64,000 bases of DNA, taken from the NCBI GenBank assembly GCA_003194525.1, contig NBIV01000081.1, positions 62,001-126,000 on the forward strand, written 5' to 3'. The notes beneath the pieces are model-generated. The model was not told the origin of the DNA, ran no database searches, and saw only the letters and a program-made list of their open reading frames with translations. Each line of letters begins with the position of its first letter. Position 1 is the stretch's first letter. This document shows, one piece after another, positions 4,479 to 54,900 of this stretch. The position numbers and the translations under genes are program-made. The stretch is from Gracilariopsis chorda (taxonomy: Eukaryota > Rhodophyta > Florideophyceae > Gracilariales > Gracilariaceae).

Positions 4479-5831
4479 ATGGCGGCTTTCACTGTGCTTA
4501 TCTGTGTGCTGCTGTTTGGCGGCGGAGATGCACATGGACTTCTCAGCGACCCTCGTCAGCGCGGGGCATTAAAAATTAGCAATCATATAACGCAATCGAT
4601 TGATGTAAGCGCTCCCCAGGATTACGAGTGCCACTTTCCCTCCGGAGACAAGTCAATAAGACCAGGCGCTGGGTATGAGTCTGTCAGGCGTGATGCAGGG
4701 TATTACTGGACACCTTATGAACCGCTGAACCCAGGGTTCAGATGGCGATGTGGAGTTTGCGGGGACGAGTTATACGGAGCGCAACATCATTTACGAGGCG
4801 GGAAGTACTATGGTGATGGGAGAAGGGTGCGGACGTATGAACAAGGAAGCATTGTGTTCTTCGAGTCAGAGATTGTGACGCATCACAACGGATTTTATGA
4901 GTTTTATGTATGTGACATTGACCGATGCGGAAACGATATTTCGGCTCGATGCTTTGAGCATGGACATTGCACAAGGTTACTACGCGCGCGGGGTCCATGC
5001 GATTCAGGGGATCATCGGCGCTGTGGTCCAATTGATAGAAACTATCCAGGACGATGGTACCTTCCGTGCGGAGGAACGGAACCTCATCTAATGGGCGGTC
5101 AACAGCTGTCCTTAGCGTACTTGCTGCCGCCATGGCTCACTTGTGAGCATTGCGTGATACAATGGTACTGGACTGCGGCGAACACATGCAACCCCCCGGG
5201 CGTGCAGGAGTACTTCACCGGACCGGACGCACCGCGATGGGGAGATTGTCGTGGACAGGGTGGTGCCAGAGGCGGATGGAGCAGTAACAAGGGCTTGTGC
5301 GGCGGCGAACATTTCCCAGAAGAGTACTGGCAATGTGCGGATGTCAGAATCGTGCCGAAGGCTCATGGACATCATCCGCCGCATGATGACCGCTTGCAGG
5401 GCAGTCATGCGCCACATGATGAGCACAGCCACAGCGGGGTTGGCACTGGTGCAAGTGGTGGGCATCACGGCTCACATGAGGGCAATGAAGGGCTGCGTCC
5501 ACCGCGGCAGACGGGCTCATCGGCTTCCACCGGCAGTGGGGTATCCGTCGGCGCGCGCAGCGGAAACACCAGCGACCGGCGCAATGGCGGCGGCGAGCAG
5601 CCTGGTTCGCACGAACAGGGGCATGGCGGTGGTGGAGAGAACGAAGGCGGCGAGGAGCGCGGCTCTCGCGAAGATCAAGGATCTGACGGGGCGCATGGGC
5701 ATGAGGGACAGCACAGCTCTGGCGAAGGCGAGGGCGAGGGAGAAAGAGGCGGAGACGAAGAGAGACGAGAGGGCGATGGGGATGACGTGGATGCGTCCGC
5801 AGCTCTCGGCATCCACCACACACATGTGTGA
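4479..5831 (+). CDS. Secreted lytic polysaccharide monooxygenase-like protein (AA15-like), His-rich tail
   Basis: Predicted secreted copper enzyme that cleaves polysaccharide oxidatively. An 18-residue signal peptide ends before His19 (start of HGLLSDPRQRG), so processing would expose the N-terminal His of a copper histidine brace. The second brace His is in THHNGFYEFYVC (His135/136), and a Tyr at about 283 in EEYWQCADV sits where the family has its axial aromatic residue. The domain is Cys-rich, as expected for disulfides, and ends near residue 292. These features match the chitin-binding type 4/AA15 group; chitin versus cellulose or another glycan cannot be told. Residues 293-450 are a low-complexity tail rich in His, Gly, Glu and Ser, not part of the catalytic fold, possibly metal-binding or wall-interacting. 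Met at 4479 is chosen because it places the signal peptide and His correctly. Single exon, TGA stop. Confidence 0.78.
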   Translation: MAAFTVLICVLLFGGGDAHGLLSDPRQRGALKISNHITQSIDVSAPQDYECHFPSGDKSIRPGAGYESVRRDAGYYWTPYEPLNPGFRWRCGVCGDELYGAQHHLRGGKYYGDGRRVRTYEQGSIVFFESEIVTHHNGFYEFYVCDIDRCGNDISARCFEHGHCTRLLRARGPCDSGDHRRCGPIDRNYPGRWYLPCGGTEPHLMGGQQLSLAYLLPPWLTCEHCVIQWYWTAANTCNPPGVQEYFTGPDAPRWGDCRGQGGARGGWSSNKGLCGGEHFPEEYWQCADVRIVPKAHGHHPPHDDRLQGSHAPHDEHSHSGVGTGASGGHHGSHEGNEGLRPPRQTGSSASTGSGVSVGARSGNTSDRRNGGGEQPGSHEQGHGGGGENEGGEERGSREDQGSDGAHGHEGQHSSGEGEGEGERGGDEERREGDGDDVDASAALGIHHTHV

Positions 5832-7341: not shown

Positions 7342-9357
7342 TTCCAGTAGTTGGCGCGACCGGCTCGTTGACTCGACAGCTTCGCGGGAGTGAGAAAGCG
7401 AGAGAAACCAGGGGTGACGGGCTTGCTGGTGAGAACTGCGTGACGTATGCAAATGTAACTTCGTGATATAAGGATACACGAATATTTCAAAAACACCTTT
7501 GCCCTCACCTTTTCAAGTTCGATATCTATGCACACGGATCACGTTGAGCACACTTGCGAAAATCCCAATCAGAAAGTTCGGAGACCCACCCCAATGCCAG
7601 TTCCGCTGATCTTAGTCGCTCTCCTGCAAGCTCTTGTTTCAGATTTATTTATCTTCCCCTCGTTTACTCTTGTTTTGATCCCCTACCACAGCGCACCAGC
7701 TGCTAACCTTTTACCAGCAAAGTTTGTCTGTTACTTCCTGGGCTGTGTTCCCAATTCCGAATAAGCGGAAAAGTGTTCACAGCTCGGTTACTTCAACACT
7801 TAGCATGTTAATGCATCATTCCGACGCGCTGGATAAGGACTTTTACAATTCTGAAACATCGACCCGCTCCAGACGGTGACTACTTCTCTCAGATAGAGCT
7901 TCGCTCTTCGTTGCAGCGGCCTGCGAGAGCTCAACGGATAGATTCTGTTGACTTGAGAGAAGCAGAATTTGTTCCCCACTTGCATGTCTCAGCTTGCTGT
8001 CGGGTTGTTCTTTATCATAAACTTCCCTTACACATGTGGTGCCAGAAGACAAGCAAGAGCATTCATTGATACGAGATGTCGTTAAACTCATCCAAGCGAA
8101 ATCGGATGAAGTTTAAGCGATCGTAGGCCATCTCTAGAGCTGCGGTGCTGGGTTGCTTTGTGCTGGATTAGTACTGCGCTGAGGGATCACGCGGGAACCG
8201 CCATTGGCCTCGTCTTGGGTATAATCCGTTAATCCGCCCGGCTTGGTATGCCAACCTTCCTGCTGATAATCAGGAGGAAGCAAAATGGATCCGGAACTGA
8301 GTCTACGTCGAGAACTTGACCTTTGCGGCAGAGACTGGCTTCGTAGATAGTTGGTACGTCGAGGTCAGAATTAGGCTTCGTCCGCCCATAAACAGCAACA
8401 ACAGCGAGCGAGTATAGCAGTACAGTACTTGAATATCGCCAAACCATGCTTTGTAGTCAACTGAAGACTTGTTCGACATGCAAGGACAGAGATTTCTGTC
8501 AGGGTTTCCAGTGTGTGTGTGTGTTGTAAGGTCTCGTGTGCGTAAGTCCGAGACTACGATAGGTTTGTTTGTCCAGCTTATCTGGCCCTCTTCTAACATT
8601 CGATTTCACGTCGACACCTTGCCTTTCTCGACGAGAAGGAACCTCTGTTCGCCGTGGCGCTGTTGTATGGCTACATCTGAGAATATTGTTTATATAAAAG
8701 AACTACATCATGGCGGGCAAAAGCACTTCCGGTCGTGACAGTCTGTAGGCACCAGGCGTGGTAGGAACGTAGCGGGATAACACTTGCATCACCAACCTCT
8801 TACGACTCTCGTCCGTGAAAAGGCTGGTTTACCATGACGGGGAACAACACATTGCGCCATATTTGAGTGTGATAGATACCAAAAGGCATCATCGCGATAT
8901 CTTATCTATCATTCGATAACCAATAACTCGTAGAATGTTGGAACCAGTCGTGATTGCTTTACTTTCATGGCAGACACATCATATTCGTGTTTGAAATACC
9001 ACTCAACGGTTGCAAGGACATCTCTAAGACTCATTCTCGAGTTGTTTGCAAAAGGAATTCAAATCACAATTTGAGAAGGGCACCCGCTTAGAACCCCACG
9101 GACCTTGGTTTACGAAACAAATTTAGGTCGGCTAAATCGCATGGAACATGAGAAGCCGCACATCTCTTCTTTCCAACAAAGGTATCTGACGAGTTTTCGT
9201 ACTCTTTGCTTTTTCTATCTTGTGGGTCACTCCGTAGCCACAAGAACTTCTCCGTAAGCTGAGGAGGTGAAAAGGAGTTGGTATTCTAGAACTGCATGAA
9301 ACATAGTTAATGTTTTTTGTCGAGGCATAGTTTTGAAGACAGAATACGGAACATCTT
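7342..9357. other. Long intergenic stretch without recognised gene
   Basis: About 2 kb with only short frames of no recognisable family. It should include the LYR gene promoter (from 7342 upward). A short (GT)n microsatellite lies at about 8511-8524. I see no transposase, RT or RNA gene. Confidence 0.4.
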
Positions 9358-20870: not shown

Positions 20871-21197
20871 GGGGCGTCAAAGTTGTTGTACCCCATCTGG
20901 AACTACAATGCTAAATCGCTTTGCTCTAGATACTGCTGTGGTGAGGGATCACTGCGAGGTACTGGCGAATCCCGCTCAGGGCAGGGCACTTACAATTCCG
21001 CCCGTCGAGGTGTGCCGACCTTCCGAAAAGGCTACAAAAGACTATGAAGTTAGGCCGGATGAGGAAGCCAAATGGAGATGCGATTGGGTCTGTTAGGGGA
21101 ATTTAGCCGTCGAATAGATGATTAGCCTTCCACTTCTTCTAGAAAGTTAATACCACTGCATCGGAATCAGACGCACGTGTCCATAAACACACACACA
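20871..21197 (+). repeat. R1 short interspersed element, copy 1 (full length)
   Basis: About 327 bases, starting GGGGCGTCAAAG and ending in an AC repeat. Flanked by a direct repeat CACTTCTGAT at 20861-20870 and 21198-21207, the mark of target-primed integration (the first bases overlap the AC tail). Other copies in this window share the same 5' end. It has no coding capacity. No clear tRNA, 7SL or 5S head is visible. Confidence 0.85.
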
Positions 21198-21279
21198 CAC
21201 TTCTGATGTTGAATAGGAATTGAATGTCTAAATGTAAAGGAAGAATGGAAGCATTTCTTCCAGTTCAATGAAGTGGCAG

Positions 21280-21832: not shown

Positions 21833-24808
21833 TTAGAGCCCCCAGTGCCAAAACGCCCACCACCTCCTGCGTCTTACCGCAGCAAAAGAAGATGTAGATG
21901 GAGACGAAGATGGTGTTGTTGATGGCGTTGGGATCGGGGAGTTTGATGTGGAGGGAGAAGGACTGGGGGTCACTGATGCGGAAGCCGATGGCGAGATGGA
22001 CGGAACAGAGCTCGGTGACGCACTGGCCAATGGGGAACTGCTCGGTGAAGAACTCGGAGAGGAGCTTGGGGACGAGCTGGGAGAGGAACTGCGAGAGGCA
22101 CTCGGTGAGGCGCTAACGGAAGAGCTGGGAGAAGGGCTCGGTAAGGAGCTAGACGAGGGACTGGGAGAAGAAGTCGGAGAGGATGTTGGTGACGGCGGCG
22201 CGCTTTCCACCGGTGCTTCAGCCCGAACAACAGCATGGGTATCGGTGTCAACTGAATAATAGTATTCCTCGCCATCATAAAGCACCTTGATCAGATTGCT
22301 CGATACTCGCTCCATAGAGAACCTTTCGGGCTCCCCAAGGTGCGGATGGAACGCCATCCAAAACACTTCCTCTTGAACGTTGTCGCTGCGAACAATCAAT
22401 CTCGTGTGCTGCTTATCACTTTCGAACAACTGAGTGCTGTATGAGGCTGCGTTTCCGACCGTGAGCACATGAACATCAACTTGCGCGATTCCGTCGTCCA
22501 CCAGCACCACTCGGCATTGGCCGCCTTCACAGCTCGATGATTCTGACTCCACTTGTACTGTGTCACCGAGCATGACGTATGATTCGAACTTGTTTTGCGC
22601 CGCAGCCCCGGAAACTTTCACCGAGTCCACCACCATGAAGAATCCAGGGCCAGTCCCTGCTCGGTTCAACACGACGGAACGCGCCATCCAGTCCAGCGGC
22701 GTCTCGCGATAGCTGCGTTTCCACACCCACATACCTCGGAACCCGACATCCGGGTCTCCGTGCATGTTGAACTGCTCTCTGGTGAAGCCGAGGTCAGCTC
22801 CGTCGTCGTCAAGAGGCCACCCAAAGTCATGCGGATGCCCGTACTCTTCGGTATCAAAGCGCTTTCCTACATTTCGGTACGAGCCGTCTTCTTCGTATAC
22901 GGTCACGGCGGCTGTGGGCGCCGTGTCGTATGGCCAGTTTCGGGACCAGTGAACGTTGTACGCGTACGTGAGGTTGGCGGCTGCAATCATCTCTGCACCG
23001 GTGTCCTCAACCTTGATCATGCCAACAGAAGGTGCCTTTGCATCCTGCGCCAAGCCGTCGATGTGCATCACAGAGTGGCGTCTGGAGTCGATGTTGTAGT
23101 TCCAGGAGTAGTCGTCCACCCAAGCCGTCTTGAACGCCGTGTATGTGAACACACCGCGATCGGCGTTCTCATGGCCCGGAAACATCGCGTCCGGGCGAGC
23201 ATCAAAGTGAATGTACTGTGCGGTTTCCGCCTCACTGCTACGCGCAATCACCAGTCCCCGGCGAGGGCTGAAGTACGACATCGGGAAGTGCAGCAAATGC
23301 TCCTCTTCCAAGCCCTGCGGTGACTCCGCGAACGTAGAGCTTCCGTGCTCAAGGCCAAGAATAGCGACATGCATAGCGTTCTGGTACCATTCAATACGAC
23401 AGGGGTTGTTGTTCTTGAAGTCCGGACCCATTCGCTGCTTCCACACCATCTGCGGTAGAGCTCCATCGGGGTAGGCGTACTTGAACAGCGCAGCCCACGC
23501 AGGATATGACATGCCGCCACCGGAAGAGTGCCCAACAATGCGAGCACACTGCCACGGTTCCATCATTTGGGCCGCATTGTGAACCAGAGCGCGGAAGCGG
23601 TCAGAGTCGATGAGCTTCAGTCCCTTGCGTTCGGCGGCGACCAGCGCCAGCGAGCCCTCTCGCAGTGCAATGAAGTATGTGTACGCATCTTCAAAGGTAG
23701 AGCCGTCAGGGTATACGGCGTGTGTCATGTACGCCTCAATCAGAGCCGAAAAGCGATGATGCAGCCCCGTGTTGAAGCCGTTGTCCCCGCTGGATGACAG
23801 CACAGCCGACGCATATGCGTCGAAATCGGTTTCGCCCTCGAGCGCGAGGTTGGTGATGTACATGTGACCGTGGTACATCGCCCAGTTGCTAAAGATGCGG
23901 TGCGGGGTCTGGACGGCGTTCGGGCAGTTTCGCGAGCTGTCCAGTCCGGTTCCCCAGGACGTCTTCTTGTACATGAGCATGGCCAGTGCGCTGAGCACGG
24001 ACCGGCGCTCGTCCACAGTGAATCGGTCGTGCAACACATCAAAAGTGAGAGCAAGCGTAGAGCCAGCGGTGAACCAGTCGTTTGCCACTTCAAACCATTT
24101 GTCCACATCCCAAAGGTACGCCCGAGAAGCTGCGTCTCCTGATGGACAGTCGCCTGCGCAGTTGACTGCACGGTGTGCCAGTAGCACTTTGGACCACGCA
24201 ACCGCTGCCTTCACGCAGTCATCCACGGTAGTCGATAGGAATGAGGCCGGCTCACCTCGCTCCGCAACAACCTTTTCATTCACACTAGTCCACAAGGAAC
24301 AAAAGAAGAAACTCTGATAGAGACCCTCAGACATGTTCATGACGTGACTTGCTAGCGGCTGGAGGGCATCGAGCGTTTCTTGCGAGGCGGAGGTTAGGTC
24401 GTCACCCGTGTACAGGGCAGTTTCGCCGCTTCGTTCCATGTGGGCGAGCGTCTGGATCACAGTGTTGGACGCGAAATGCAGCGAGCTGCGACGCACAAAA
24501 TGAGACCAGGAGGAGTCCAGGTTGAACATATCTGCATCAGCGTATCTTGACAGCAGTTGTTGCCATCCGTCGGCATCGAAAAGGATTCGGGGGTGCACTC
24601 CGGGGCTGTACGCTGCCGCCGGAGCTGGAGTGACTGCGACTGAACCGAACAGAGAGGGATGAGGCCCGGCGTTCATAAAAGTAGTTACGCGATCTACATT
24701 ACGGAGTGAAGGGGATCCGTCGGTACGGGGAGGAACTTTCACGGACGAGGAAATAGTGACAATACTACACAAAAGCAGCAAATAGGAAAGGGGAGGGAAA
24801 TTACCCAT
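21833..24808 (-). CDS. Secreted heparinase II/III-fold polysaccharide lyase or epimerase-like enzyme
   Basis: Large secreted protein, 991 residues. A hydrophobic signal peptide (about 1-22) precedes an alpha-toroid region starting around HPRILFDADGW. Family blocks visible are SNWAMYHGHMYITN (Asn/His), YPDGSTFEDAYTYF (candidate catalytic Tyr) and GHENADRGVF with a following RRHSVMHIDG, the latter typical of heparinase II/III lyases and dermatan-sulfate-epimerase-like enzymes. The substrate is unknown; in a red alga a sulfated galactan or uronate-bearing glycan is plausible but not shown. From about residue 870 there is a 100-residue Ser/Pro spacer, probably O-glycosylated, ending in a short basic-aromatic tail RRRRWWAFWHWGL just before TAA. 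No introns. A TATA-like and CCAAT-like pair lie about 100-130 bases upstream of the start. Confidence 0.75.
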   Translation of the reverse strand: MGNFPPLSYLLLLCSIVTISSSVKVPPRTDGSPSLRNVDRVTTFMNAGPHPSLFGSVAVTPAPAAAYSPGVHPRILFDADGWQQLLSRYADADMFNLDSSWSHFVRRSSLHFASNTVIQTLAHMERSGETALYTGDDLTSASQETLDALQPLASHVMNMSEGLYQSFFFCSLWTSVNEKVVAERGEPASFLSTTVDDCVKAAVAWSKVLLAHRAVNCAGDCPSGDAASRAYLWDVDKWFEVANDWFTAGSTLALTFDVLHDRFTVDERRSVLSALAMLMYKKTSWGTGLDSSRNCPNAVQTPHRIFSNWAMYHGHMYITNLALEGETDFDAYASAVLSSSGDNGFNTGLHHRFSALIEAYMTHAVYPDGSTFEDAYTYFIALREGSLALVAAERKGLKLIDSDRFRALVHNAAQMMEPWQCARIVGHSSGGGMSYPAWAALFKYAYPDGALPQMVWKQRMGPDFKNNNPCRIEWYQNAMHVAILGLEHGSSTFAESPQGLEEEHLLHFPMSYFSPRRGLVIARSSEAETAQYIHFDARPDAMFPGHENADRGVFTYTAFKTAWVDDYSWNYNIDSRRHSVMHIDGLAQDAKAPSVGMIKVEDTGAEMIAAANLTYAYNVHWSRNWPYDTAPTAAVTVYEEDGSYRNVGKRFDTEEYGHPHDFGWPLDDDGADLGFTREQFNMHGDPDVGFRGMWVWKRSYRETPLDWMARSVVLNRAGTGPGFFMVVDSVKVSGAAAQNKFESYVMLGDTVQVESESSSCEGGQCRVVLVDDGIAQVDVHVLTVGNAASYSTQLFESDKQHTRLIVRSDNVQEEVFWMAFHPHLGEPERFSMERVSSNLIKVLYDGEEYYYSVDTDTHAVVRAEAPVESAPPSPTSSPTSSPSPSSSSLPSPSPSSSVSASPSASRSSSPSSSPSSSPSSSPSSSPLASASPSSVPSISPSASASVTPSPSPSTSNSPIPTPSTTPSSSPSTSSFAAVRRRRWWAFWHWGL
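21925..22200 (-). repeat. Tandem Ser/Pro-encoding repeat tract inside the heparinase-like gene
   Basis: Short repeats encoding SPSSSPS-type units with a periodic GAG/CTCGG pattern on the plus strand. They form the spacer between catalytic domain and C-terminal tail; length variation between strains is likely. Confidence 0.8.
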
Positions 24809-25795: not shown

Positions 25796-26137
25796 GTGTG
25801 TGTGCATGTGTTTGTGTGTGTTTTTACGGGCACGTGCCTCCGATTCCGATGCAGTGGTATTATCTTTTTCTAGAAGAAGTAGAAGGCTAATCATCTGGTC
25901 TACGGCTAAATTCCTCTAATAGACCCAATCCCATCTACATTTGGCTTCCTCATCCGGCGTAACTTCATAGTCTATTGTAGCCTTTTCGGAAGGTCGGCGC
26001 ACCTCGACGGGCGGAACTGCATGTGCCCTTAGCGGGACTCGCCAGTACTTTGCAGTGATCCCTCACTACAGCAGGCATCCAGCGCAAAGCTATATAGCAT
26101 CGTGGTTCCATATGGGCTACGAGAACTTTGACGCCCC
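25796..26137 (-). repeat. R1 short interspersed element, copy 2 (full length)
   Basis: About 342 bases in reverse orientation, from GGGGCGTC at 26137 down to an AC-rich tail at 25796. Flanked by a 13-base target duplication matching at 12 of 13: TACCTTTCTGTAT (25783-25795) and TACCTGTCTGTAT (26138-26150). This is the best-bounded copy and defines both ends of R1. Confidence 0.88.
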
Positions 26138-26150
26138 TACCTGTCTGTAT

Positions 26151-27016
26151 TTTCGAACTTCTAACGTCTGTGTCTGCTCTTGTAATGTCTGTGGAGCTTG
26201 TATGAGAAGAAGGCTACAGAATTTTTCTCGTTTCTTTGGTATATATGCTTTGCGAATAGACAGTCAGTCGGAAACCGTATCTCTTGTCTGTTTTGTTTAG
26301 TTGAGAAGAGCTTTTCCCATTTCCAGTTCCATTCACAGACTAGATGCATATTTCACTAACACCTCCTGGGTCAGTCTCAAAAACAGATCAACACGATGTG
26401 CTGTACTTATTCTTTCGGAGCTACTGCGTTGGTACTTGCGATATTTGCGCCCTTTACGTGCGTGTACAAATCTACGGCATGCTGGTTTGAGCTTCAGAAT
26501 AATATAAGTGGGAAACGTTTATCAGGGATATAGTTGGTTTGCTCCTCTATATAGTAAGGTGGCCTTTTTCCGAAATCAAAACCAGAATTAGGAGCGGAAT
26601 CGCTCAAAGGCCGTAACTATCTTCGTCAGTTGAAGAGTGCTGACATTCGTACTCACATGATATCAGAGGAAGGTGAAATGGAGTATAATCGAGTCTATTC
26701 TTAGGCGAAAAGTCGGGGATTAGCTTGTTGAGTTAGTGATTCGAAGTCAGAATAGGCTTTTTCCTTCTTTAACAAGGAAGAAGCAGAGCACAGCTTGCAA
26801 GCATACTGAAACACAAGAACGCTTTAAGAAGTCCGAACGCTTTTTTTATTGATTACATGAGACAATGAAGGAATCCGGAAAAAGAGGCCATCCACATTCC
26901 AAACTCCCGATATTCACGACGAGCAATCATATATGGCATTTTTCCATGTTAATGTGGCAGACAAAGGTGTGAATACAACCCTAGAGCTCCCGCAGACTGT
27001 TCCGACACAAGCGAGT
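26151..27016. other. No gene recognised
   Basis: AT-rich DNA with short unsupported frames. The end nearest 27016 would be the 3' UTR of the small secreted peptide gene. Confidence 0.4.
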
Positions 27017-27151
27017 TTAAATAGTGGGGGTACCACCCAAAGAGCTGAAGATGTCGTTGAGCTTTTCGGTAATAGCATCGAAGCCGTTCTTTTCAGCAAC
27101 GGCAACAGAGGCGAGAACAGCGACGATGGCGACGATGTAGGCGGTCTTCAT
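27017..27151 (-). CDS. Small secreted peptide, 44 residues
   Basis: Short ORF not resembling any family I know. Residues 1-19 are a textbook signal peptide: MKTAYIVAIVAVLASVAVA with a cleavable VAVA end. The mature part would be about 25 residues, starting EKNGFDAITEKLNDIFSS, with hydrophobic residues spaced as in an amphipathic helix, followed by a GGTPTI tail. There are no cysteines. Codons are strongly biased to C-ending forms (ATC, GTC, GCC, AAG, AAC, GAC), unlike the AT-rich decayed surroundings, as in highly expressed genes. Upstream is a C/A-rich, G-poor leader of about 110 bases and a CTTAAAG box. Purine at -3 (AAAA before ATG) fits a good initiation context. It is isolated among transposons. 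Function unknown: defence peptide, wall peptide or signal are all open. Confidence 0.72.
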   Translation of the reverse strand: MKTAYIVAIVAVLASVAVAEKNGFDAITEKLNDIFSSLGGTPTI

Positions 27152-27259
27152 TTTTGGTTTTGAGTTAGTGTGGAAGTGAAGGGTTCTGAAGGGTGTTTGG
27201 AATGACAGGAGAACACTTGATTGCTGGTGAGGAACAATTGAGATGGATGTGAGATGATG

Positions 27260-27275
27260 GTGCTCTTTAAGTAGT
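27260..27275 (-). promoter_or_regulatory. TATA-like box of the small peptide gene
   Basis: On the minus strand CTACTTAAAGAGCA lies about 115 bases upstream of the ATG, ahead of a leader with CATC/CACC repeats and almost no G. The position fits a core promoter; it is a motif guess. Confidence 0.4.
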
Positions 27276-28526
27276 GGTTTGCCTGCTTGGCATGGACTGT
27301 AAATGAATTCCTCAGCCCCATACGAAGCGGTCTTTGCCGAACGTTTCTCTACTGAGAAATGCCAGTGTCAAACGGGCCACCGCATCTTGGCCAAGAAAAT
27401 AAGCATGATAAATGTTTGGCAACAGAACCCTGAAAACTTAAGAGATGAGGCCCAAGAATGTTTCGTGGTACAGTGACATATCGAATCAAGTGGTATAAGA
27501 CCTGCACAAGAGTACGGCTTTTGACCCTCAAATAACTATTGTAAATTGGTTCGCAAGTTTCTGGTTTCCACGGAAGACCCAATCTCCAACCCTTTTCGCT
27601 CTCCTACAAATGGTCCCGTTGCACGGAATGGCAAACGATGCAAGCCATGTTTCGTGTGCCCCAAATGAAAGAAGAACATATTGAAAAACGGAGAGGGACC
27701 AAAAACGGCGGAGAATTCAAGGACAAGTACGAGGGTAGATAGCTCTGTTAATAGGGCCGGACTGCACTCTCTAGCCACTATACTCTTGCACGACAGAACT
27801 TGTCCACTCTATTTGAAAGTCAGACCCCAGCGTTCCCACGTCTATTGTGTTGTGGGTACGGGCCCATGCCTCTAATTCCAAGGCAACGGTATTCGCTTTC
27901 TACAAGTAGAATGCTAATTATCTATTCGACGGCTAAATTCCCCTAATAGACCCAATCTTTCGTTCAGCCGACATCCGCTCGGGCCACAACAGTCAAATGA
28001 TTCATGGTGTTCATAGAACAGTTCTCGTTAATGAAAAAATACGGGACGCCAAGAATGAACAAAATGCGAGGGACATACCTTCAACTGATGGATGCACGAC
28101 AAAAGAGAAGAATATGCTTAAGGGACAGTTTCGGGCAGGTTGTAGCGGTAGTAACTGCCACTGTTTTGTGTGAGGGAGTGAGTTTCTTTTCTATGTTTGA
28201 GTACTAAGTTATAAACCACAGCATGCTTCAGAGATTGGTTTCCAGCACAGATTATGTTGATGAGTCAGTTTCTTTCTCTCAAATCCAGATTCCTAAGAAT
28301 CTGTAGAAACCACTACGCACAGCAAACTGTGTAGTACACTCCGCGAAAGCTAAATTAAGCCACCGGTCTCTTCCTTCCTGTGACAATACTTGAAAGGAAG
28401 GGAGGCAGGGTAGCACACTGCGCTTCTTCAACTCAGTAATGAGGGCAGTTAGGCAGCCTTGTAGAGCGGAAGACCTCGCAGGTCAACGTAAAAGGGTAGA
28501 TAGCTTGAACAAGACCACAAAACCTA
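27276..28526. other. No gene recognised; contains a truncated R1 copy
   Basis: Short frames only. A 5'-truncated R1 copy (27852-27958, minus) is the one identifiable item. Confidence 0.4.
27852..27958 (-). repeat. R1 element, 5'-truncated copy
   Basis: About 107 bases matching the 3' third of R1 (from GATTGGGTCTA through GAATTAGAGGCA). 5' truncation is the usual result of incomplete target-primed reverse transcription. Confidence 0.7.
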
Positions 28527-29681: not shown

Positions 29682-30800
29682 TGAATCACGCAGGTATGGA
29701 TTGTTGTTGGTGAACTGGAGGCATCCAATAAGATTGGAACGTAATCTGAACGGACAGATAGGTTACATTTGTCAGTTTTATCCGTCTGAATGGCCGTGCT
29801 ACAGAAAAAGAAGAGTCATTCAAGAACAATGGTGGAAGTGAGGGATGGCTTTATTCTGGTTTGGCGGACTGTACAGTGGTACTTTCAATGGGGCCACAGG
29901 AAATTTCCGAATGTTCCTGGTTCAATAAATACCTTATTGTAGTGCAACGCCCTCAAGGAGTGATTCTTGGTACTTGAACGCTTTCCCGATATTATCGGTT
30001 GTGTAGTGTGTATATGAACTACGCCCCACAATGGTGGATATGGACACGTGGGACACGGTTTTGGGTCAATTGGCGGTTGGCCACAGTAGTGGATGTTGCC
30101 ACGAAATGTGGAGTATTTTAGTTAATATTATTTATTATTTTCATACCCATTTCTGGGAAGCTAGTACTTAGTGCGACGGCGCACTGCCGTTGCACCAGTA
30201 AACCTTCCCCAACAAGGGACCCCCAACCTGGGGAATTGGCTCTAGTTGTTACCGCTTGCGCGCGTGCTCTACTCCTCCTTGGAGGGAAACGCCGTAAATC
30301 ACGGGACATCTAACCCCCTTGCACATCCAAAGAAGCCCATCCTTGGGAGTATAATTGTTCCAATCATATTGGTGTTTCGCCCTGTATAGGGAGTCCTGTC
30401 CACCAGCATCGCCGTATCTGTTCGTCGCTCTCGCGACTCACTTCGTCCTCTCTTCCTCCTCTTCGCCCTTCCTTCTTCCCCTTTTTAGGGTAGCACCTCC
30501 CGCTATCTGCGGCCCTCGTGTGCGCATCCGCTCCCACACCCCCACTTACGTGGAAACATACCTCTACTGAGGATCACACCCCGCTCACGCGGATACCGAT
30601 TCTTCGCCTTCACCTCCCTGCGCGAGTCGCGACAGGTGTCCCTGGTCTTACAAACCGGCTTCGCCGTGACACCTCTGGGAGAGCTCTACCCAACTGGGTT
30701 CACCTCGTGAGAGGAAGATCCCGAACGTCTTTCGGTGTTTTTCCCCTTTGGGGCATTGCACCACACTTATCTCTTGCTGTATATCGATTGAAATACTAAG
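29682..30800. other. No gene recognised
   Basis: The part at 30,340-30,800 is C/T-rich, unlike its flanks, and looks like an LTR or leader of a retroelement, but no partner copy is in the window. Nothing else can be supported. Confidence 0.3.
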
Positions 30801-30902
30801 GGGTCGTCAAAGTTTTCGTAGCCCATATGGAATCACGATGGTACATCGCTTTGCGCTGGATACTGTTGTGGTGAGGGACGACGAAAAGGTACTGAGGAGT
30901 CC

Positions 30903-30911
30903 CAATCAGGG
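30903..30911. repeat. 9-bp target-site duplication, left
   Basis: CAATCAGGG here against CACTCAAGG at 35285-35293, matching at 7 of 9 positions, directly flanking the long-TIR element. Confidence 0.6.
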
Positions 30912-34947: not shown

Positions 34948-35284
34948 GTAACAGGCAAAAGGCAGATGATGACGGGGGGAGGTGGTGGCTGGTCCGGGTT
35001 GGAGGCAGAAACGGAGGCGATGACGATGGGATGTCATGCCCGGTTCGGAAAAAGCACGTGCTCGACATAGAACGACATGTAACAGTTTCATTGGTCAAGA
35101 TGAGTTTAAGTTGCTCAGGTTTTCCTATTGGCTCATTTCCAAAATAGCGTTGCATCATTGGGTCCTAAAGAAAAATCAATTTTGACTCATTGAGATGGGT
35201 CAGTTTTTCAAAAACCATCTGCTGAGCTGGTCTTTTTCAATCAATCTTTTACTCCGTCTGCGCCATGTAGACTATTCTTTGGCC
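34948..35284 (-). repeat. Right long terminal inverted repeat
   Basis: Inverted partner of 30912-31223. It carries about 25 extra bases relative to the left copy, in the block around CGACATAGAACG. Confidence 0.88.
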
Positions 35285-35507
35285 CACTCAAGGTACATGC
35301 CCTTCTGGCTGTCGAGGTTTGCCGACATTCGGAAAAGGCTATACAACACTATGAAGTTGCTGTGGATGAGGAAGCCAAATAGAGATGCGATAGGGTCCAC
35401 TAGGGATATTTAGCACTCGAATAGATAATTAGCCTTCCACCCGTAGAAATTGAATACTGCTGCTTTGGAATTAGAGGCAGGTGCTCGTAAACAAACACAC
35501 ACACACA

Positions 35508-51947: not shown

Positions 51948-54900
51948 TTATTGTATTGTAGTTCTCAAGTACATATTCGCAGCTCTAGAGCGTTTTTGCT
52001 TCTCTGTAGGGTTTGGAGTTAACAGCGGTTCCACAAAGTTAAGGGGGATCGAAATATCAGGCCAAAGTTGTAACAAGTTTTGAGCTTCCTCTATCTTAGA
52101 ATTTGCTGCTTCCTTGAGCGCTTCCAGGACCTTAACCACTACGGTATGAACATGGATTCTCCATACGATTATGTCTTTCCAAATCCATAGAGGTTCATGG
52201 GGTGAAGGCAGTCGCTTGCGTCATTTGTTCAAAACCTTGCGTACATTCTCAATCTTCTACTCAAAGTTAACGTTGTCATTGCCATGTATGCCGAGAGCGT
52301 TAAAATCATTCAAGATATTTGCTGATTCTTGAAGCCCAACAAGTTGTGGAACTGGACCAGAGTCGTCTTTATACAATCTAAATCTGCCGATGCGGGTAGG
52401 GAAGCTAGTTTCTCAAGTGTCCTCTCAAAGCCTTCCTTCACAAACGTTTCACCTTCCTCAAGGTTATTCTGCTGAAGATGAACATACGCCTCGTAGATTT
52501 GCATCTTTGAGCTGTCCTGAGAGGGCTTCTCCAGCAACAGATCCTTCAGAGCCGTCCAGCTGCAACGCTCCAGAGGAATTCATGAAGCAGTTTAGGATTA
52601 AACGCAGTTCCCGAATGGTTGGTGAGTGTGTCCAATTGACACCAATCGACACAAGCTCTTAGCACATTCAATCCATCGCTCTTCGCAAAACAAATTTCAT
52701 GAGAACCAAGGTGACCAGTCTTGTTGGAAATCGAGCCCGTTGATATGTTCTTGCTCAGTCCTTCCTCAAATGCCTCTTGAGCGTCTGCAAAAAGACTCAT
52801 TTTTTCGATTTAAAACCCGCTATAAGTTTGCTTAATGCGAGCTCTAGCTTTCCACGTCCCAGCCAGATAGTCCTTTTCTTTTATAGTAACAAAAATCTTG
52901 ATCTGGGAATCAGCAATGTCTTAAAGCTTGGTCTGAAGTACTTGTTGCGTCTTATCGCTGATTGTTTCGCCCTCTACACGTGATAGAACTATGTTGTGTC
53001 TGAGTTCCAAGTAGGTCAAAGCAGATTGCCACGCATTCCATCTGGATCCAATATATCGTATTGAATTAGCTCTGAAGCAAAGAAGAGGCTGAAACCTGAC
53101 TAAAGATTCAATTAGTGCTTGGATATTATTTCTGGGCCAGCTGAATTGAGTCTGATGGTACTCTTTGTTTAGAAGACATGAAAAGGATTTTCTTAAGCTG
53201 GTCTGTTCTCCAGGTGCAAGCTGTGCCCATACCTGTGGTACCAACATGGCCCATGTGCTGCATGCAATTTCTTCATCTCGATTCATGAAACAGATCAACG
53301 AAGCGACAAAATCCCCAGAACGCCATCGATCCAACGCGCTCCCAAACTGCCGGAAGGATACATCTGAGATCCTGAGAATAAAGGCCTGTGAGGTGTTCTT
53401 CCTTTGTTAGTTAGCGTCTTCCATAACAACATCTTCGTCTTTTGTGTAAGATGTCAGCTTCGGAAACAAGCGTGCTCCGCTCGCTAGCTCTATTCTGTGG
53501 TCCTTCTCAGCCGACGAAATAAGCAATTCAGTGGCTTTCTTGATCCATAAAGTGTCAGCGAGGAACTCCCATTCATGTTTTGGTATTACATAATGAAGAC
53601 GGAATGTCGCCAAAACACCAACATAAGTCTCATATATCTCAAGGAATTTCTGCCGAAGAGATGATACATGAGATTTCAGAACTATCATGAAACCCTGTTC
53701 GAGCTTAAATAGCAAATCTGGACTCCTATGAGGAGATTCACTGCCTCTAAACGATTTCAGAATGATCGAAAGATGAGCGTCCATTAAGAGTTGCGATCCT
53801 TCCCCCTTGATTTTCTCAAAGGCTATCATTCTTTGCAACAGCTCAGTTTTCTTCTTATTTGTAAGTAGCTTCCTCTCTCCAGGATGAATTCCATGACCGC
53901 TCGGGCTCCAGAACATTAAGCTGTCGATAAACTTCACGACTTGAATCAGAACTTCAACATCTGTGCCCTTGTCAATCAGTTGCAAAAATGCGTGGAAAAC
54001 CTGCGGTTTTGGGTTTGGATCAATTGTCGCAAGGTACCAGTTCACCAGAGATAAACATAGACGTAAACACTCAGATTCATATCTCTTAAACAGTTAATCT
54101 ATTTCCACAACCACTTGTCCTTTTGCATGCTTCGCTTCATCACCTACAGATTCCTATTCCTTTGTACTCCCCACTTTCATATCAGAATTCGTCACAGGCT
54201 GACCAGATCCCCTTTTAACTGTTTTCTGAGCTCTCCAGATCCCGTGATGTGCTCTTTGAACTGAAGACGCAGCCCTCGCAGTCCCTTCCACTTGCCCGCT
54301 CGTCAGAAATTCCTTGACCATGCGCTGCAGAACTCTCATCAATTTCTCTTTATACTTCAAGAACTCCTGAGGCGAGCCGTCCATACATCTTTGAGTACCC
54401 ACATGCCCCAGTAATTCTGAAGGTGGTCGTTTGACTTCAGCCACATTTCCGGAACAGTATGCAGCTCTGTCATAAATTTCGCAACCCATGTTTGATCACC
54501 ACCTTCACCTCATGCCTCGGAAGATGGCAAAGATGATTTGGTTGAGCTCCCGGGGTCCTTAGATTGCTCTTCTCCGGGTTTAACCGAAGCCTTGGAAACA
54601 CCCCACTTCTGCGACATATTGTTAGAAGGCAAAGGTTTAGACTTCTTGAGCACAATCGGGATTAGAGAAGAGAACTGCGACGCTGCAGAGATAGCATTCT
54701 CCGTAGCAGATGGCTGGATGCAGGCTCAGATCGCGTTTTTGTTCTGCTTGACAAACGTCAATCCCTGATACTTGATCGATCCCTAGGACACAAGTAGTTG
54801 TGTCACCAATGCACTGTTCCGCACTGCGATTCCCTTCATCCGCACTTGGTCTGTCTTATCGCTTCGCTGTTATGTCTTATGACCTTTTTTATCCACTTTT

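Follow-up and report, generated by a model that had tools for sequence, protein, structure and literature searches.

A probable old, two-copy red algal gene for a small secreted helical peptide

Genes of about 45 codons easily escape gene callers, and an open reading frame (ORF) of 44 codons amid DNA that looked rich in mobile elements raises the question of whether such a frame is a gene and, if so, what its product might do. The ORF runs from 27151 to 27017 on the minus strand of the window, by which we mean the whole 64-kb stretch of DNA analysed, and its full translation is MKTAYIVAIVAVLASVAVAEKNGFDAITEKLNDIFSSLGGTPTI. A sequence-only reading had placed here an isolated but intact gene for a secreted peptide, possibly of a new family with a role in defence, the cell wall or signalling. 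Our survey indicates that the ORF is most probably a genuine gene, old and present in two copies, whose product is a secreted helical peptide matching no family over cut-off; that the gene itself is real we regard as nearly certain.

Two copies of one coding frame

The N-terminus of the 44-aa peptide is hydrophobic (mean Kyte-Doolittle hydropathy of 2.67 over residues 4-16, with a hydrophobic run from A4 to A19) and is followed by an A-V-A|E junction and then by 25 residues without cysteine. Residues 1-19 of the coding sequence (27017..27151, minus strand) are accordingly predicted to form a signal peptide and residues 20-44 (EKNGFDAITEKLNDIFSSLGGTPTI) the mature part. On its own, such an ORF is not convincing, because signal-like small ORFs arise by chance. 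Specifically, a crude signal-peptide filter of our own, applied to small ORFs of 35-80 aa with hydropathy computed separately, passes 4 of the 252 such ORFs in the window, the peptide ORF included, and 30 simulated 64-kb windows contain a mean of 0.6 signal-like small ORFs per window.

The discovery of a paralogue makes the ORF far more than a product of chance. A DNA search with positions 26900-27400 against the genome (91.3 Mb in 1081 contigs) returned one other match, 75% identical over 220 bases, and at C74:9196-9333, on the plus strand, this second copy encodes a 45-residue peptide that is 80% identical to the first. The two peptides share 35 of 44 aligned residues, the ATG and the stop codon, and their one difference in length amounts to one whole codon. 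The gene is thus not isolated in the sense of lacking relatives, as had been supposed. No third copy was found in the 91.3 Mb with DNA, protein, paralogue or mature-part queries, the last three of which each gave two candidates, both scored, in a first look that a very diverged copy could escape.

The 31 nucleotide differences between the copies fall by codon position into 22 third, 8 first and 1 second. A dN/dS comparison had been suggested should homologues exist; run on the two copies by NG86, it gives a dN of 0.125 and a dS of 1.26, hence a ratio of about 0.1. Maximum-likelihood estimates of dS are larger still (about 3 for the whole frame, 4 and 10 for its parts), so that dS is near saturation and the copies are old; dN/dS can be trusted only in its order, about 0.1 or less. 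When the same base changes were placed at random, identical positions numbered 26.8 of 45 on average and 35 at most, so that the observed 36 of 45 (stop included) was reached in none of 20,000 trials; the frame was kept in 21% of them. The sense frame is also the best conserved of the six in the two-copy comparison, beginning at the shared ATG and having as its single stop the shared last one. An antisense gene at 26933-27163 on the plus strand was rejected, as the antisense frame without stops in either copy retains just 22 of 45 residues, and another, with 34 of 44 residues kept, has two stops in both copies. Judged from the two sequences, this is a protein-coding gene under purifying selection, with dN/dS well below 1 and the frame intact in both copies, and to that extent the earlier proposal of an intact gene, with a probably secreted product, is upheld.

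Codon usage had also been singled out, and indeed 23 of the 44 codons of the peptide gene end in C, compared with fractions of 0.18-0.38 in six long ORFs of the window. The codon preference of the gene matches that of these six ORFs better than do 99% of 3000 random stretches from 25-57 kb, and only 14% of 207 stretches of 44 codons taken from the six ORFs themselves equal its fit.

The small ORFs that passed the same filter served as controls. One of the three others in the window has no second genome match, another has three weak partial matches (best E of 0.008) and neither gave a full-length relative; the third, a 72-aa ORF at 8232-8447 on the minus strand, sits in a dispersed repeat with 140 genome matches, roughly 100 of which contain stops. 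None of the three shows a single intact old copy, as the peptide gene does. A chance ORF, which the simulated windows show can arise, and a transposon-derived ORF, of which the repeat-borne control is an example, are both rejected and together have a negligible probability, given the constrained paralogue and its 0 of 20,000 simulations in the first case and, in the second, the occurrence of the peptide ORF at two places only, both intact, against the 140 matches of the repeat ORF. More generally, comparison of paralogues within a genome can rescue tiny genes without transcripts.

Shared leader and 3′ end

Similarity between the copies extends beyond the coding frame on both sides. On the 5′ side, alignment of the flanks (27236-27162) scores 64, while none of 1000 shuffles exceeds 29. 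By eye, the two-copy alignment shows a TATA-like box 122 nt before the ATG, TACTTAAAG (27265..27273, minus strand; TATTTAACG in the paralogue). In both copies, 37 nt separate its first base from that of a 20-mer, TGTTCCTCACCAGCAATCAA (27217..27236, minus strand), which is identical in the two and whose last 19 bases recur nowhere in the genome when up to 2 mismatches are allowed. Given its distance from the TATA-like box, the 20-mer probably holds the transcript start. The 5′ leader would then span 85 nt (27152..27236, minus strand) with 6 G and no upstream ATG, closely matched by the 84 nt, 6 G and no ATG of the paralogue; the G-poor leader and TATA-like box previously described are therefore both present. 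Bacterial-type promoters were rejected, being at chance level and irrelevant to a nuclear gene.

On the 3′ side, the flank alignment scores 62 (maximum of 30 in 1000 shuffles) and part of the 3′ untranslated region is conserved as a block at 26866..26950 (minus strand), beyond which an AATAAA at 26845..26850 (minus strand), colinear in the two copies, is a probable polyadenylation signal, 301 nt from the ATG and 295 nt in the paralogue. Farther out on the 5′ flank the copies show no similarity, the score being reached by 230 of 300 shuffles. The 3′ flank 250-1250 nt downstream holds one 23-column match whose score is reached by 3 of 300 shuffles; we discount it, yet it runs against a perfectly clean edge. 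No structured RNA matched Rfam at the gathering threshold in 26000-28000.

The copying of the leader and apparent promoter along with the frame suggests a duplication of DNA rather than of a spliced message. A recent segmental duplication was rejected: a comparison at the DNA level (blastn, E 1e-5) of 50 kb of C74 with 104 kb of C81 finds six shared pieces, namely the gene, an unclassified piece of ~830 bp (matched at two sites in C81) and three short stretches of repeat. The ~830-bp piece, at 29937-30765 in the window, shares 92% identity with C74:1446-2253, which lies about 7 kb away from the paralogue.

Predicted product and its candidate roles

Six changes between the copies fall in the signal peptide (T3S, V7I, A8T, I9L, V10F and V18M). 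A cleaved signal keeps its -3 and -1 positions under the von Heijne rule, and the retention of A17 and A19 while the -2 position turns from V to M is as expected for a cleaved signal; the signal peptide proposed earlier thus stands as a prediction, with its A-x-A type cleavage site kept in both copies. The changes in the mature part (E20D, one added K, D33E and I44V) are conservative. By NG86, dN is 0.091 in the mature part against 0.174 in the signal part, a comparison of two sequences only, and the nominally lower value in the mature part leans towards a role as a ligand or a structural component.

The translation confirms 25 cysteine-free residues for the predicted mature part, and calculation its amphipathic character. 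For the core GFDAITEKLN[D/E]IFSSL, the helical moment is 0.669 in one copy and 0.662 in the other, values that 1 of 5000 shuffles reaches in each case at 100 degrees and that are unremarkable at 160 degrees, so that the core scores as a strongly amphipathic helix in both. AlphaFold2 run without an alignment predicts one helix over residues 2-38 followed by a loose tail, fusing the signal and mature parts, in a weak single-sequence model (mean pLDDT from 82 for the best to 64 for the worst of five models; pTM of 0.40).

Searches with the peptide yielded no Pfam or NCBIfam family over cut-off. Below threshold, an NCBIfam elongation factor 1-beta model matched the paralogue (E = 0.066, scoring 13 bits where the cut-off is 67), the best PDB match covered 27 residues of the hypothetical protein 1sqs (E = 0.011; another had E = 2.3) and the AlphaFold2 model gave two viral-fold matches, both with E above 6, and no others; all of these are taken as chance matches between helices. 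No relative was confirmed among 506 pattern matches in a collection of viral contigs, 114 in a collection of prokaryotic genome contigs or the one match (E = 9) in a phage collection, and a plasmid collection gave none. Four peptide strings occur in no paper of the literature searched, nor, among the papers listed, was any work on red algal secreted peptides, orphan proteins or peptide ligands recognizable, by title or start of abstract, as concerning this family. The suggestion of a new family holds only in part: the peptide is unnamed in these collections, which are not of red algae, and so not necessarily lineage-restricted, and it has a paralogue. It resembles lineage-restricted (orphan) secreted proteins in lacking a Pfam or NCBIfam family and a confirmed viral, prokaryotic, phage or plasmid relative, as far as collections without red algae can show. 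In kind it is nothing new: it belongs, still unnamed, to the broad class of small secreted peptides.

We give a probability of roughly 0.45 to the full reading in which this real red algal gene encodes a secreted, cleaved helix whose function outside the cell is that of a ligand or co-factor. Under this reading, a TATA-type promoter would drive an mRNA of ~0.4 kb from the apparently intronless gene, and the 44-residue product would enter the secretory pathway by way of its predicted signal peptide. Signal peptidase would cut after A19, freeing the 25-residue peptide without further processing. Outside the cell, G23-L38 is predicted to fold into an amphipathic helix whose single hydrophobic face comprises F24, I27, L31, I34, F35 and L38; a short flexible GGTPT[I/V] tail would follow. 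The hydrophobic face may bind another molecule, with a protein of the cell surface or wall as the likeliest partner, and the peptide would thereby act as a ligand or co-factor, possibly in signalling. The combination of an acidic, helical, conserved mature part and a somewhat freer signal mildly favours such binding over membrane attack.

Membrane attack is the essence of one alternative, a defence peptide that, once released, would insert its amphipathic helix into the membranes of microbes. The peptide shares about 25 residues, the lack of cysteine and a strong helical moment with linear amphipathic helical antimicrobial peptides, and it stands behind a predicted signal peptide. Most membrane-active helical defence peptides are cationic, however, and positive charge and a separate propeptide are features of the class, whereas here the net charge of the predicted mature peptide is -2 and -1 in the two copies (termini not counted) and no separate propeptide is seen. 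Fast-evolving defence peptides also show the reverse of the nominally lower dN found here in the mature part, and the absence of cysteine from both copies leaves no conserved cysteine pairs of the defensin type. The defence role raised at the outset is thereby weakened, and we consider it unlikely. A structural or surface peptide, whose helices would pair through an a/d-like F-I-L-I-L face to cover the wall or contribute to the matrix, is likewise a doubtful proposition: hydrophobic residues at a spacing of 3-4 are kept in both copies and the codon fit is compatible with good expression, but the helix offers only about 2.5 heptads, with no repeat, no cysteine and tyrosine confined to the signal part. 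Still less probable is an uncleaved small membrane protein, with the N-terminal helix as anchor and the tail regulating a membrane complex. Small single-span regulators are common and the AlphaFold2 helix is continuous, but the short hydrophobic run leads into a canonical A-x-A junction that both copies retain. Finally, the ORF is very improbably the first exon of a larger gene with its stop codon inside an intron; introns occur in 23-29% of genes in four Gracilaria species according to PMC10388701, but mostly synonymous changes continue here up to the shared stop, with the conserved 3′ block and the AATAAA no more than 175 nt beyond it.

The ligand reading invites comparison with the unprocessed, non-cysteine type of land-plant small secreted peptides, which likewise come from a short ORF with a signal peptide and one small mature peptide and form small families. 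By contrast, no sequence relation to them was found, and the peptide has no dibasic cleavage site and is an acidic amphipathic helix rather than a Pro/Hyp-rich C-terminal motif, both the site and the motif being features of the land-plant class. Red algae split early from other multicellular lineages, and a constrained, probably secreted peptide with a conserved leader and 3′ end offers a concrete, testable entry to the peptide biology of red seaweeds. A bolder extension, which we hold only tentatively and think unlikely, is that the two copies are the founding pair of a red algal ligand family, in which an acidic amphipathic helix of 25-26 residues, released by signal peptidase only, would act through a surface receptor unlike land-plant kinases as a case of peptide signalling of independent origin. 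PMC10834447 reports receptor-like proteins in Rhodophyta and a more recent emergence of receptor-like kinases, which makes a kinase receptor of the land-plant style uncertain here.

Genomic setting

The gene lies in an apparently single-copy island of ~1.7 kb (26141..27842) between copies of a dispersed repeat. Positions 26900-27400 match the paralogue only (both candidates scored), and in the 1-kb flanks, where 40 of 269 and 40 of 195 candidates were scored, no listed match begins before 27843 on one side or extends past 26140 on the other; the gene therefore appears to sit in single-copy DNA, the outer parts of the island being less certain. The repeat, of about 328 bp and unclassified, occupies 25810..26137, with more copies at 20871-21200 and 35283-35507 and partial ones at 27845-27957 and 30801-30911, and it occurs in both orientations in the window and on many contigs.

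Pfam was run on 17 of the 38 window ORFs of at least 150 aa. Five of the six at 1-20 kb have matches (two kinases, LPMO_10, amine oxidase and CLASP_N) and one has none, whereas beyond 33 kb four of ten match (RT-RNaseH, DDE_1, DUF6818 below cut-off and a piece of the Tra1 HEAT-ring) and six do not. The surroundings had been described as otherwise mobile-element debris, a description that the RT-RNaseH and DDE pieces and the dispersed repeats bear out in part, but from which the stretch 26900-27400, clean save for the paralogue, a 991-aa frame and the Tra1 piece at 53.4 kb depart. The 991-aa frame (21833-24808, minus strand) is intact, lies 2.2 kb from the peptide gene and has no Pfam match even at E = 1. 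The Tra1 HEAT-ring piece (53407-54045, minus strand; E 7e-28), amid supposed transposon debris, may be an exon or a pseudogene.

Around the paralogue, a 234-aa ORF at C74:13097-13801, ~3.8 kb downstream, looks secreted and cysteine-rich by eye; it has no Pfam match and a 94% identical second copy at C74:17722-18423. The genome as a whole has seven phycobilisome-linker matches over the Pfam cut-off, and only a cyanobacterium among 14 control genomes has any, which is consistent with a red alga. At the other end of the window, a 450-aa ORF (4479-5831, plus strand) of this red alga is LPMO_10-like (E 4e-8).
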